A stretch of 64,000 nucleotides of DNA from Marilutibacter spongiae (GTDB lineage: Bacteria; Pseudomonadota; Gammaproteobacteria; Xanthomonadales; Xanthomonadaceae), in assembly GCF_014145325.1 (NCBI RefSeq), contig NZ_JACHTF010000001.1, positions 1-64,000 on the forward strand. Reading direction: 5' to 3'. A program made the position numbers and the translations under genes. The notes under the pieces were generated by a model that did not search any database, had not been told where the DNA came from, and worked only from the letters and a program-made list of their open reading frames with translations. This document shows, in pieces, positions 50,151 to 54,717 of this stretch (its first letter is position 1; the number at the start of each line of letters is the position of its first letter).

Positions 50151-51182
50151 ATGGACCCCACGACCACGCCCACTGCCTCCCCCGCGACCGCGCCGCGTTG
50201 GCGCCTCGTGCTCAATGGCAAGGCCGCCGGCGACGAGGATGTGCGCGCCGCCGTCCAGGCGCTGCGCGATGCCGGCGTCGACCTGGGCGTGCGCGTGACC
50301 TGGGAAAGCGGCGACGCCGAGCGCTACGTCGACGAGGCGCTCCGCGATGGCGTCGGCGTGCTGGTCGCCGGTGGCGGCGACGGTACGCTCAGCGCCATCG
50401 CCGCCGCCCTGGCCCACCACGACCGTCCCGCCGCCGACCTGCCTGCGCTGGCCCTGCTGCCGCTGGGCACCGCCAATGATTTCGCGTCCGCCGCCGGCCT
50501 GCCCGACACGCCCGAGGCGGCCCTTCGCCTGGTCCTGGAGACGCGCGCCCAGCCCATCGACCTGTTGCGCATCGAGTCCGACGGTGCCGTGCACTGGTGC
50601 GCCAACCTCGCCAGCGGCGGCTTCGGCACGCAGGTGACGGTGGAAACCGACGAAGGCCTGAAGAAAGTGCTTGGGGGACTGGCCTACCTGGTCACCGGCA
50701 TCGCCCGCCTGGGGCGGATCGAGCCGGTGGCGGCCCGCCTCGACGGACCGGGCTTCCAGTGGCAGGGCGAGTTCATCGCTCTGGGCCTGGGCAATGGACG
50801 CCAGGCCGGCGGCGGGCAGCAGCTGTGCCCGGAGGCGCTCGTCGACGACGGCCGGCTCGACCTGACCCTGATCCCGCCGCTCGACGGCGAAGTCGGCGAG
50901 ACCGTCGCCGCCCTGCTGACCGAAGGCCGCGAAGGCGCGCTCGAGCGCATCGCGCTGCGCGAACGGCTGCCCTGGGTCCGCCTGGAGAGCGAATCGGCCC
51001 TGGTCCTGAACCTCGACGGGGAACCGGTGCAGTCGCATCGTTTCCGTATCGACTGCGTGGGCGCCCGCCTGCGCATGCACCTGCCGCCTGGCTGCCCCTT
51101 GCTCGGCGTGCCCGGCGATCCCGGTGCGGCGACGGGCGCCGGGCCCGAGGCACCCCTCGCCGGCGGCCTGTTGCCCGCCTGA
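50151..51182 (+). CDS. YegS-like diacylglycerol/sphingosine kinase family protein
   Basis: 343 residues with the DAGK catalytic fold: [15 protein letters not shown] (first strand), [18 protein letters not shown] (GGDGT nucleotide motif) and [18 protein letters not shown] (GTxNDFA). A C-terminal beta domain has [12 protein letters not shown] and [11 protein letters not shown]. YegS-type enzymes phosphorylate lipids such as phosphatidylglycerol; the substrate here is unknown. The C-terminal 25 residues are Gly/Ala/Pro-rich. Confidence 0.87.
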
Positions 51183-51215
51183 GCGGTGCGCCGGCGGCTG
51201 CCGCCCCGGATCGGC

Positions 51216-51318
51216 TAAAGTAGCGGCCATGACTGTCGGGGCGATCACGAATGCCGGCCGTGGCGACACGGGTTGGCGATGGTGGACAAGCGCAAGCTCG
51301 CCCACCGTTGCCATCGCC
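51216..51318 (+). promoter_or_regulatory. trpE leader: -10 element and Trp-codon hairpin
   Basis: TAAAGT (51216-51221) stands 7 bases before the leader ATG, so transcription may begin at that ATG. The Trp-codon segment GGCGATGG (51275-51282) pairs perfectly with CCATCGCC (51311-51318); an alternative GGTGG (51281-51285) : CCACC (51302-51306) pairing is mutually exclusive with it. No classical oligo-T terminator is visible. Confidence 0.45.
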
Positions 51319-51405
51319 CTGCCGCACCCAAAGGAACTGCCGCGTGAATCGTCCAGCCCACACCGCCGCCCAGTCGCTCGAGCATTTCCAGCAGCTTGCT
51401 GCTGA
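51229..51405 (+). CDS. Putative Trp leader peptide of trpE
   Basis: A 58-codon frame starting [14 protein letters not shown] and then [10 protein letters not shown], with Trp at codons 16, 18 and 19. It has no protein-family match and overlaps the first 62 bases of trpE. Tandem Trp codons just ahead of trpE, a -10-like hexamer immediately before the ATG, and complementary segments downstream are the features of an attenuation leader. The same TGGCGATGGTGG stretch occurs in the trpG leader. The physiologically relevant part is probably only the first 20 codons or so. Confidence 0.55.
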
Positions 51406-52858
51406 AGGGCATACCCGGATCCCGGTCGTGCGCGAGGTCTTCTCCGACCTCGACACCCCCTTGTCGGTCTATCTCAAGCTCGCCGACGGCCCGCACACCT
51501 ACCTGTTCGAATCGGTCGAGGGCGGCGAACGCTTCGGGCGCTACTCGATCATCGGACTGCCGGCGCGCCGCGTGTACGCCTTCGCCGGCCACACGCTCTA
51601 CGTCACCGAGCACGGCGAGCTGGTCGAGCACCGCCACGTCGACGACCCCTTCGCCGAGGTCGAGCGCCTGCGCACCGAACACTCGGTGCCGCGCATCGAG
51701 GGCCTGCCCGGTTTCACTGGCGGGCTGGTCGGCTGGTTCGGCTTCGAGTGCATCGGCTACATCGAGCCGCGGTTGGCCGGCGGCGACAAGCCCGACGAAC
51801 TGGGGACGCCCGACATCCTGTTGATGCTCAGCGAGGAACTCGCGGTCTTCGACAACCTGCGCGGACGCCTCTACCTGATCGTCCACGCCGATCCGCGCGA
51901 ACCGCAGGCCCACGCCCGGGCGACCCGGCGGCTGGACCAGCTGGTGCATCGCCTTCGCCACGGCGGCACCAGCTATCCCGAGACCCTCGACCCCAACGGC
52001 CTGGACGAAGCGGACTTCGTGTCCGGCTTCACCCGCGAGGGCTTCATCGACGCGGTCGAGCGCTCCAAGGCGTACATCCGCGCCGGCGACATCTTCCAGG
52101 TGGTGCTCAGCCAGCGCATGTCGGTACCGTTCAAGGCCCGCCCGGTCGATGTCTACCGCGCGCTGCGGGCGCTGAACCCGTCGCCGTACATGTATTTCCT
52201 CGACGTCGGCGACATGCAGGTGGTGGGCTCCTCCCCCGAGATCCTGGTGCGCCTGCAGCACGACGAGCAGGGCAGGGGCGAGGTGACCGTGCGACCGATC
52301 GCCGGGACGCGTCCGCGCGGCGACACGCCCGAACACGACCTGGCCCTGGAGGCCGAACTGCTGGCCGACCCCAAGGAACGCGCCGAGCACCTGATGCTGA
52401 TCGACCTGGGCCGCAACGACACCGGCCGCGTTTCCGAACCGGGCACGGTGAAGATGGGCGAGCAGTTCACCATCGAACGCTACAGCCACGTGATGCACAT
52501 CGTCAGCGAAGTCACCGGCACCCTGAAGCAGGGCATGAGCTACGCCGACGTGCTGCGCGCGACGTTTCCGGCGGGCACGGTCAGCGGCGCGCCGAAGATC
52601 CGCGCGCTCGAGATCATCCGCGAGATGGAGCCGATCAAGCGCAACATCTATTCCGGCGCGGTCGGCTACATCGGCTGGCACGGCGATGCCGACACCGCCA
52701 TCGCCATCCGCACCGCGGTCATCCAGGATGGCCGCCTGCACGTGCAGGCCGGCGCGGGGATCGTCCACGACTCCGATCCGCAGAAGGAGTGGGAAGAAAC
52801 GATGAACAAGGGCCGCGCGCTGTTCCGGGCCGTCGACGAAGCCGCGCGCGGACTCTGA
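51344..52858 (+). CDS. trpE: Anthranilate synthase component I
   Basis: Converts chorismate to anthranilate using ammonia from TrpG. 504 residues. The N-terminal Trp-binding region ([19 protein letters not shown]) and the C-terminal chorismate domain ([79 protein letters not shown]) are complete. The start is GTG 51344 with AAGGAA upstream. It is 1.27 kb from trpG, separated by an unrelated gene, so the two synthase subunits are expressed from separate units, each with a Trp-rich leader. Confidence 0.95.
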
Positions 52859-53068
52859 ACGGGCGCCGTCAGCGGGGCGGACGATTCTCAGCAATGACTG
52901 CGATGCCTGCCGTGGCGGGCGCCGCGGCGCGCCGCCGAAACCGTCACGCGCGCCGCGTGTCCGCGTTTATCAATCCCAGACGTTGCCTTCACGAGGGACG
53001 GTGTTCATTGGTCCCGCGGGTCGCACGATCGCCCGCCGTATCCGGAAGCGAAGCAGGAGGGGATTGCG

Positions 53069-53773
53069 ATGCAGCCTGTCGAAGATCGTTATGTACAGTC
53101 GCGCTTTTCCAACACGTTTCCGCGCACCGTCGAGCTGACCTGCCCGCACTGCTTCAAGCAGTCGGTCCTGGAAGCCCGCAGCTGGCAGGAGCACGGCCAG
53201 CAGGTCGCGGCCAGCGAGATGGTGTGCTCGCGCTGCGAGGAGCGCGTGCTGTTCGTGCAGCTGCTCAACGAGGACGGCGTCATCCGCGAGGGCGGCCTGT
53301 TCTGCCATCCCGGATCGGCCCGCCGCGAGGCGATGCCGGGCGTGGCCTACCTGCAGAACCTCTCGGGGCCGCTGGCGCGCACCTACGATTCCGCCCTCAA
53401 GCTCTACAACCACGCCGAGTGGGGCGCCTCGGCGCTGATGATCCGACACCTGCTGGCGGGGCTGGCGGTGCAGTTGCTGGGCGAGGAACGCCGCGACCTG
53501 CCGCTTGCCCAGCAACTGGAGGCGTTGCCGCAGGACCTCGACCTGGAGCGGCCGCTGCAGGACATCTCGCCCCTGCTCGACTCCAGCGGCACCTTCGGCC
53601 GCCAGTTCGAGGACGAAGCGGCGATCGACAAGGTCAGCGCCGACCTGCTGCTGGAACTGGCCGAGCAGCTCATGGCTTACCTGGTGGTCATGCCAGGGTC
53701 GATGGACGACCTGAAGAAGCGCATCGCCACCGCCCCCGTACCCCTGCGGCGCGGCAACACCGGCACCGCCTGA
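53069..53773 (+). CDS. Zinc-ribbon protein with a DUF4145-like domain
   Basis: 234 residues. CPHCFKQSV (about residues 26-34) and CSRCEERV (about 51-58) form a four-cysteine zinc ribbon. The helical remainder (ARTYDSALKLYNHAEWGASA, MIRHLLAGLAVQLLG) has the pattern of DUF4145-type C-terminal domains, which occur in restriction- and defence-related and housekeeping proteins alike. It sits between trpE and trpG. I see no link to tryptophan synthesis and cannot assign a function. Confidence 0.62.
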   Translation: MQPVEDRYVQSRFSNTFPRTVELTCPHCFKQSVLEARSWQEHGQQVAASEMVCSRCEERVLFVQLLNEDGVIREGGLFCHPGSARREAMPGVAYLQNLSGPLARTYDSALKLYNHAEWGASALMIRHLLAGLAVQLLGEERRDLPLAQQLEALPQDLDLERPLQDISPLLDSSGTFGRQFEDEAAIDKVSADLLLELAEQLMAYLVVMPGSMDDLKKRIATAPVPLRRGNTGTA

Positions 53774-53834
53774 GCGACGCCCGGGGCGCGCGCCCGTGCC
53801 CCGGCGCAGGGTCGCGCGGCGCCCGCGCAGCCGG

Positions 53835-53962
53835 TACAGTGGGCCCATGGTCATGCGCGGCGCACATCGAGACATCGCCTGCACCCCGGCCGGGGACGCC
53901 GGGCGCGTAGGTGGCACCGCCTGGCGATGGTGGCGCTGAGGCCCCGCCGTCCCGACCCACCG
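53835..53962 (+). promoter_or_regulatory. trpG leader: -10 element and Trp-codon pairing region
   Basis: TACAGT (53835-53840) lies 6 bases before the leader ATG. GGTGG of the Trp codons (53929-53933) can pair with CCACC (53957-53961). GGCCCC (53940-53945) is also complementary to GGGGCC (54013-54018), which in turn can pair with GCCCC (54030-54034). No strong oligo-T terminator is seen. Confidence 0.4.
53847..53939 (+). CDS. Putative Trp leader peptide of trpGDC
   Basis: A 30-codon frame, start MVMRGAHRD, ending GGTAWRWWR before TGA, with Trp codons at 53922, 53928 and 53931. The 12-base string TGGCGATGGTGG is identical to that in the trpE leader, and CCCACCG follows in both. It lies 188 bases before trpG in a spacer (53774-54126) that otherwise holds no gene. 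Neither leader resembles a folded protein. A ribosome site is weak, compatible with leaderless translation. Confidence 0.5.
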
Positions 53963-54126
53963 CCCCCCGAGACTCCCCGCGTGACCCCATCGTTCCGACC
54001 CGCCCCGCCGCAGGGGCCTTCCCGGTCCTGCCCCGGACCCCGCCGCGCGGCGCAAGGCGCGATGGCGACCTTCCTTTCCCTCCTCGAAACCCGGGCCCGT
54101 GCCCGGCCCACACCGAGTGCGCGCCG

Positions 54127-54717
54127 ATGCTGCTGATGATCGACAACTACGACAGCTTCACCTGGAACCTCGTGCAGTACCTGCAGATGCTGGGCGCCGA
54201 GGTGAAGGTGGTGCGCAACGACGAGCTCGACGTGGCCGCCATCGAGGCGCTGGCGCCGTCGCGGATCGTCATATCGCCCGGCCCCTGCACCCCCAACGAG
54301 GCCGGCGTGTCGGTGGCCGTGATCGAACGCCTGGGCGCGACGACGCCGATCTTCGGCGTCTGCCTCGGCCACCAGAGCCTGGGCCAGGCCTACGGCGGCG
54401 AAGTGGTCCGCGCGCGGCAGATCATGCACGGCAAGACCTCGCCCATCCGCCACGCCGGTGGCGGCGTGTTCGATGGACTGCCCGACGCCTTCGAGGCCAC
54501 CCGCTACCACTCGCTGGTGGTCCGGCGCGAAAGCCTGCCCGACTGCCTGGAGGTCACCGCCTGGACCGAGGACGCGGCCGGCGGATTCGACGAGATCATG
54601 GGCCTGCGCCATCGCGAACACCCCGTCGAGGGCGTGCAGTTCCATCCCGAATCGATCCTGACCGAGCACGGGCACGCCATGCTCAGGAACTTCCTGGAGC
54701 AGCCGGGGCGGGCCTGA
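54127..54717 (+). CDS. trpG: Anthranilate synthase component II (glutamine amidotransferase)
   Basis: Supplies ammonia to TrpE from glutamine. 196 residues of the class I GATase family. [16 protein letters not shown] is the TrpG/PabA N-terminus, [12 protein letters not shown] the synthase-interface loop and [18 protein letters not shown] holds nucleophile Cys79. [14 protein letters not shown] completes the triad (His173, Glu175). It may also serve p-aminobenzoate synthesis, as no pabA is seen nearby. Followed by trpD at 67 bases. Confidence 0.95.

Follow-up and report, generated by a model that had tools for sequence, protein, structure and literature searches.

A second tryptophan-codon leader before trpG in Marilutibacter spongiae and its likely place in a Lysobacteraceae family of probably translational leaders

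The trpG gene of Marilutibacter spongiae is preceded by a second leader with clustered Trp codons, and comparison across relatives showed that this leader and the one before trpE are of one kind, as the earlier note on this DNA had proposed in calling them sister leaders. The family element to which they belong, whose commonest place is before trpE, most likely acts on translation. We consider it rather probable that the trpG leader is a second copy of this Lysobacteraceae Trp leader, and that it brings about Trp-responsive translational attenuation that a small ORF relays to trpG. The anatomy, the pairing statistics and the keeping of frames come from comparison; a leaderless start, a response to Trp, coupling and a part for Rho are what we infer.

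The trp locus of the window

The trpE and trpG genes and the parts of their leaders described here lie on the forward strand of the window, by which we mean the whole 64,000-nt stretch that was analysed (contig NZ_JACHTF010000001.1, positions 1 to 64,000). The trpE gene (51344..52858) was identified by Pfam, as were trpG, trpD and trpC, and its GTG start was picked by the Shine-Dalgarno (SD) sequence AAGGAAC at 51331..51337. Upstream of it, a -10 box, TAAAGT (51216..51221), precedes a leader peptide ORF of 58 codons (51229..51405) that overlaps the trpE start out of frame. Its Trp core, TGGCGATGGTGG, occupies 51274..51285, and in the minimum free energy (MFE) fold of locus L031 this core pairs with a 3' arm, CCACCGTTGCC, at 51302..51312. 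The trpG gene (54127..54717; Pfam GATase, 3' limit from the ORF end) begins 1.27 kb further on, on the same strand and with one ORF between, so that the trpE and trpG units are not unlinked, contrary to what had been supposed. The intervening ORF (53069-53773) matched no Pfam family above the cut-off and gave only weak zinc-finger-like matches; an ORF of this kind also sits between trpE and trpG in G004, in G005 and in all six g64 loci that were looked at.

The leader before trpG has the parts that had been described for it. Its -10 box, TACAGT, was located at 53835..53840, six bases 5' of an ATG at 53847, and the frame of 30 codons that opens there (53847..53939, TGA at 53937-53939) ends in AWRWWR and is predicted to be translated leaderless. 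GGTCGCG, a candidate -35 element or regulator site, lies at 53810..53816, 18 nt 5' of the -10 box. The Trp core (53922..53933, encoding W-R-W-W) is again TGGCGATGGTGG, of which these two are the sole exact copies in the window, and it forms the 5' arm of a hairpin predicted by MFE folding, with the 3' arm at 53944..53954. The motif CCCACCG does follow both cores, at 15 nt in the trpE leader and at 22 nt in the trpG leader, which is not the similar distance that had been reported. We rejected CCCACCG as a common pairing partner in the case of trpG, where the core pairs, in the predicted fold, with 53944-53954, 5' of CCCACCG. Further downstream, a weak SD-like site, CGAGACT (53968..53974), precedes a putative relay ORF of 51 codons (53981..54136) that starts with GTG at core+59, and whose position and frame are kept across genera. 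Its stop codon, TGA at 54134-54136, overlaps trpG and forms TGATG with a second in-frame trpG ATG at 54136. This small ORF, the out-of-frame overlap of the trpE leader with trpE and the negative search for an intrinsic terminator in 50900-54400 had all been absent from the earlier note.

The 12-mer TGGCGATGGTGG occurs 11 times in the 3.63-Mb genome, against two copies of a reversed control, and is therefore weak evidence by itself. The bare string was dropped as evidence, and the argument is built on comparison. Rfam at the gathering cut-off found only tRNAs in the whole window and no Trp leader family; at E <= 1 on four relatives (L075, L068, L141 and L153) it gave one weak unrelated match. 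A Pfam search of the leaders and the small ORF gave no match.

The leader in relatives, before trpE and before trpG

We collected 110 trpE loci (L031-L140), 30 kept from 60 relatives and 80 kept from named genomes, which span the inside and the outside of the family, some genomes being present in both collections. A core of the TGGCGATGG type (parser pattern TGGCGA[T/G]GG) stood directly before trpE in 54 of them, including named Xanthomonas, Stenotrophomonas, Pseudoxanthomonas and Lysobacter records. For 51 of the 54 the parser found a start codon, mostly 45-48 nt before the core, and a -10 box 6-10 nt before the start (27 at 6 nt, 16 at 7, 6 at 8 and one each at 9 and 10); L119, L131 and L134 yielded neither. 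Given that the parser, here and for the trpG leaders, required TA...T within 5-10 nt of the start, the presence of the box is partly by construction, but its narrow spacing and its TAnAGT form, seen in 47 of 51 trpE leaders, are not. The Trp cluster lies about 15 codons into the trpE leader, and a predicted hairpin pairs leader sequence with the trpE SD. The leader's stop codon falls within trpE in 46 of 48 loci (35 of the 48 have it at +35), and the frame offset of the leader relative to trpE is identical in 47 of 48. A covariance model of 41 leaders, R1, matched 163 of 247 Lysobacteraceae genomes at E <= 0.05 with strict filters.

Several side observations concern these loci. In most Xanthomonas, Stenotrophomonas and Pseudoxanthomonas loci trpE apparently starts with TTG, and in several of them a GTCGTC before this start can pair with GACGAC of the leader. 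The trpE leader of L077 (MAG GL140_5) stops after WRWWR, like the trpG leaders of the window's genus, with trpE about 90 nt or more downstream. Four Marinobacter loci (L128, L131, L133 and L136), which are outside the Lysobacteraceae, have a different Trp leader that ends ...RWWRWRTG before its stop, about 100-120 nt before trpE.

Comparing leader pairs in other genomes, a check that had been suggested earlier, revealed that trpG, too, is preceded by a leader of this type in 38 loci, which come from four genera. R1 gave exactly two matches per genome in 20 of 20 g16 genomes, 9 of 12 g64 genomes and 4 of 8 g26 genomes; the remaining genomes had one match (two in g64, two in g26) or none (one and two, respectively). 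Of 40 genome stretches taken for reading, two (L177 and L179) were without trpG, and in L158, L178 and L180 no trpG leader was parsed despite the model matches there in G081 and G185. The 38 loci with a parsed leader comprise 20 from g16, 10 from g64, three from g26 and five from g1, the window's genus, where the leader was found in G000, G001, G003, G004 and G005 among seven genomes; R1 alone detected it only in G004 and G005. Neither by eye nor by scan did G002 show a trpG leader, and in G006 trpG itself was not found. In G002 (locus L006), the DNA upstream of trpG looks unrelated, and trpG and trpE are on different contigs. Short ORFs with clustered Trp codons (WRW or WRWW), as judged from sequence, thus appear to precede trpE in the relatives and trpG in the 38 loci.

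The trpG leaders also share predicted promoter elements. TA[CAG]AGT lies 6-7 nt before the ATG in 38 of 38, and GGTCGCG, 18 nt before the -10 box, is the majority consensus of the 38 promoters from four genera (each base kept in at least half of them); it is unlike TTGACA, and no TTGACA-like -35 element was found in these promoters. Where both genes are on one stretch, the distance from trpE downstream to trpG is 1.26 to 6.6 kb; in G001 it is about 16.5 kb. A scan for Trp motifs found no leader of this type before trpG where trpE and trpG adjoin, nor in several Stenotrophomonas and Pseudoxanthomonas loci and one Xanthomonas locus with gaps of 0.76-2.4 kb. Because there are separated loci without a trpG leader, separation of trpE and trpG alone does not predict one. 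In 15 of 20 g16 loci the trpG leader reaches its stop at +35, counted from the downstream start, which is the same point as in 35 of 48 trpE leaders; the g1 leader stops directly after the Trp codons, with no overlap into the small ORF, and the frame relation of the two varies.

Sought at core+57 to core+65, the start codon of the small ORF was present 58-61 nt after the Trp core in 38 of 38 (GTG in 36, TTG in one and ATG in one), which is also where trpE begins after most trpE leader cores; the offset was 58 in 20 of 20 g16 loci, 58 or 61 in g64, 61 in g26 and 58-60 in g1. The ORF has 44-136 codons, and its TGA overlaps trpG exactly as TGATG in 33 of 38 loci, the exceptions being L170 (+8), L151 (+86), L155 (in frame with trpG), L156 (-15) and L160 (-22). 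Since this TGA is fixed by trpG codons, what has to be asked is whether the ORF stays open and keeps its register. Of 37 distinct regions, 35 had this frame open, where dinucleotide shuffles predict 22.3, while the other two frames were open in 26 and 4 of 37; the rows less duplicates gave 37 for these frame counts, and 35 and 33 for the folding and helix counts below. In g16, 15 of 16 distinct lengths were in register (P 8e-7 at 1/3 each). By eye, the peptide sequence is not conserved.

We also considered whether the head of the small ORF is a stub of trpE. In g16, identity to trpE over the 34 nt that follow the start is 43%, against 29% after shuffling, but the likeness is confined to the final 9 nt (73%), at the point where the leader terminates, and the preceding 25 nt are near chance (32%). 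A stub carried over from trpE is therefore possible though poorly supported by the sequences, and was rejected as an established feature.

Shine-Dalgarno pairing, the proposed switch and its alternatives

In the relatives, the SD of the next ORF is predicted to be held by leader sequence. Four loci were set aside before folding, namely L077 (trpE further downstream), L061, L062 (= L041) and L041 (unsure start), as were identical sequences. In the 46 distinct trpE leaders kept, the modelled probability that the SD is unpaired averaged 0.20 against 0.43 for codon-shuffled sequences, and in 35 distinct trpG leaders it averaged 0.22 against 0.40. The best Watson-Crick helix between SD and leader averaged 5.75 in 40 trpE leaders against 5.13 with swapped SDs (maximum of 300 swaps 5.42), and 5.79 in 33 trpG leaders against 4.58 (maximum 5.09). 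For the trpE alignment, A1, the covariation score was 0.175 against 0.136 in shuffles, with 0 of 500 as high, a figure that, like the other p-values and pairing figures given here, overstates independence because the sequences are related and the structures were derived from them. Cells changed on both sides numbered 71 against 46.4 in shuffles, although there was no excess of pairs changed on both sides (15 against 15.3) or of further pair types (55 against 56.9), and slid controls reached at most 0.108. The trpG alignment, A2, which is the source of covariance model R2, contains 31 leaders and omits G000, G001 and G003. It scored 0.172 where shuffles scored 0.128, and it had 18 pairs with changes in both partners where shuffles had 11.7; none of 500 shuffles reached either value. 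For further pair types (48 against 44.2), 42 of the 500 did so, and the score of slid controls stayed at or below 0.118. The predicted pairing of the SD with leader sequence thus has covariation support in the relatives.

We then modelled the effect of a ribosome on the leader. The first footprint extended from 17 nt before the core to 16 nt beyond it, and other footprints were tried afterwards. With the first, predicted SD access was 0.43 for trpE; for trpG it was 0.26 against 0.22 (p 0.29), which is no effect. A ribosome stalled at the first Trp codon, with a later footprint, gave modelled access of 0.46 (trpE) and 0.37 (trpG), rising to 0.56 and 0.45 with a queued ribosome behind it. With the ribosome stalled at the third Trp codon, the model gave no more than 0.30 and 0.26, and with a ribosome beyond the Trp codons 0.29 and 0.24.

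These results suggest the following switch. Transcription would probably start at or beside the leader ATG, the -10 box being separated from the leader start by 6-8 nt in 49 of 51 trpE leaders and by 6-7 nt in 38 of 38 trpG leaders, and translation of the leader would then begin on a leaderless mRNA. Most of the relatives sampled would have the SD of the following ORF paired with part of the leader ORF and, above this pairing, the Trp-codon hairpin. When charged Trp-tRNA is scarce, a ribosome would stall at the Trp codons, open the hairpin and keep the anti-SD off, so that the next ORF could be initiated; when Trp is plentiful, the hairpin would re-form. In the case of trpE, leader ribosomes would in addition cross the trpE start and stop inside the gene when Trp is plentiful, which may add to the block. 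In the case of trpG, the next ORF would be the small relay ORF, and translation would pass to trpG by translational coupling at the TGATG overlap. Translation of the small ORF may also protect C-rich RNA from Rho.

In the window's own leaders, this switch may be weakened. The trpE SD is not sequestered there (unpaired probability 0.68 native against 0.71 codon-shuffled), nor is the SD-like site of the small ORF (0.55 against 0.56); the longest helix between leader and SD is 2 nt for trpE and 4 nt for trpG, and stall modelling opened neither SD. Because the pairing of SD and anti-SD is lost in both leaders, the mechanism is less certain in this species, where, to judge from folding, the Trp hairpin and the relay ORF may work weakly or otherwise. 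It could even be, though we think it unlikely, that the trpG leader of the window is a decaying remnant, homologous to working leaders and no longer regulating trpG there. The lost SD pairing agrees with such decay, as do the weak SD CGAGACT, the divergence of the leader in length and sequence, and its low scores with both models when the 64 kb were searched: 16.7 bits (E 0.04) with R1 and 16.6 bits (E 0.11) with R2. The two alignments do not place its Trp core on theirs, and in a whole-genome search the leader went undetected by R1 at E <= 1 and by R2 at E <= 0.001. R2 was also tried as added support for this leader and strengthened nothing. However, G000 and G003 both retain the -10 box, WRWWR, the hairpin, the position of the small-ORF start and its frame to trpG. 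What links the window's trpG leader to those of the relatives is the promoter (GGTCGCG, 18 nt, TA[CA]AGT), the terminal WRWWR, a small ORF that starts at core+59 and keeps its frame as far as trpG, and the tree described below.

Two other mechanisms have to be weighed, and we regard each as improbable. In classical transcription attenuation, a stall on the Trp codons would decide, upstream of trpE and of trpG, whether an antiterminator or a terminator hairpin forms. The Trp codons do sit in a hairpin arm, and the trpE and trpGDC operons of Pseudomonas putida are reportedly regulated by attenuation. However, no terminator-like hairpin with a T run was found in 50900-54400, by a scan that is blind to Rho-dependent stops; the conserved pairing involves the SD; and the trpE leader enters trpE in 46 of 48 loci, which leaves little room for a terminator before the gene. 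The second mechanism, to which we give the same small weight, is specific to trpG: translation of the small ORF would protect a C-rich stretch on which Rho would otherwise halt transcription before trpG. The region of the small ORF has a mean C content of 0.46 and a mean G content of 0.29, values for that region alone; such C richness would suit Rho loading, and the frame is kept open as far as trpG, but the exact TGATG overlap fits coupling equally well.

Finally, that the trpG leader is a functionless short Trp-codon frame beside an A+T-rich hexamer is very improbable and largely refuted by comparison, since, for all that the 12-mer has 11 genomic copies and small frames are common in high-GC DNA, the feature set is found again upstream of trpG, at near-fixed spacing, in 38 loci that belong to four genera, and the g1 and g16 leaders cluster in the tree.

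Origin of the trpG leaders and comparison with known systems

To consider the origin of the second leader, we used a tree of 21 trpG and 22 trpE leaders picked by hand. The trpG leaders of g1 (four of five) and g16 (all eight used) grouped together (95/88), apart from the trpE leaders of their own genomes; the fifth g1 trpG leader, L003, has a long branch and was placed elsewhere. The trpG leaders of g64 (98/96) and g26 (99/99) were separate, so that the trpG leaders do not form one clade, and three changes are needed, at least two of them forced by starred branches. The sequences make a copying of the leader likely, and the tree speaks against a single origin of the trpG leaders. A recent duplication within the species is unsupported, given that the g1 and g16 trpG leaders group together. 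The earlier explanation, duplication of an ancestral leader when trpE and trpG separated, has partial support: the joint g1 and g16 group and the +35 end shared by g16 trpG leaders and trpE leaders speak for a copying, and the scattered positions of the trpG leaders in the tree speak against one origin for all.

Taken together, we tentatively propose, while holding the combined reading to be somewhat more doubtful than not, that Trp-sensing translational attenuators with leaderless leaders occur throughout the Lysobacteraceae, including Xanthomonas and Stenotrophomonas, and that the leader ribosome acts twice in them, exposing the next SD when stalled and crossing and blocking the next start when running. 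After trpE and trpG had split, the module would have been copied together with its start site and set before trpG, once or more, and the ORF so opened would have become a relay to trpG with a free sequence and a guarded frame. If this is true, then much of the Lysobacteraceae controls trpE, and several genera control trpG, translationally through leaderless leader peptides; the small ORF serves purely as a ribosome relay; and the locus is an example of a regulatory element copied after the split of an operon. The reading also yields clear and cheap tests, at the Trp codons, the anti-SD and the stop of the small ORF.

Textbooks explain transcription attenuation by the example of tryptophan control. 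Two trp units under leader control, which the earlier note did not know as described, are already known: Olekhnovich and Gussin reportedly showed in 2001 that the trpE and trpGDC operons of P. putida are under attenuation, and the mechanism there is said to be transcription attenuation. The likeness lies in the two units, trpE and trpGDC, each under attenuation; the differences here are that no terminator was found, that the SD pairing is conserved in relatives, and that a small ORF lies between the leader and trpG. In translational attenuation of the ermC type, a stalled leader ribosome frees the SD of the next gene; the stall is induced by a drug there, whereas a shortage of charged tRNA would cause it here. 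We know of no relay ORF in the polycysteine systems of mycobacteria. These are leaderless short ORFs that act on the translation of the next gene (Canestrari 2020, via the portion of PMC9031893 available), and they resemble the present leaders in being leaderless, in carrying codons of the sensed amino acid and in their target, but they sense cysteine instead of tryptophan and belong to an unrelated organism. Corynebacterium diphtheriae likewise has two trp operons with attenuators, according to the available text of PMC1262725. The trpL leader of Sinorhizobium meliloti, in the excerpt of PMC7298713 at hand, is also a leaderless Trp-codon leader peptide, its RNA beginning at the leader ATG; it differs in having a terminator and a released sRNA, and that excerpt describes neither a hairpin sequestering an SD nor a relay ORF. 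The LEU element before leuA in Actinobacteria is the likeness in pairing: in the available part of PMC1262725, a leader region with codons of the end product is predicted to pair with the SD of the biosynthetic gene. There, however, the leucine codons themselves pair with the SD, together with a pseudoknot, whereas the anti-SD of the Lysobacteraceae leaders lies upstream of the Trp codons. A literature search that named Xanthomonas, and not Stenotrophomonas or Lysobacter, and that covered few subscription journals gave no Lysobacteraceae trpE or trpG leader peptide among the matches listed, and the available portions of PMC1173090 and PMC5343134 describe none. The double leader arrangement is already known elsewhere; what is new here is the probable action on translation, the running of the leader into trpE and the putative relay ORF before trpG.
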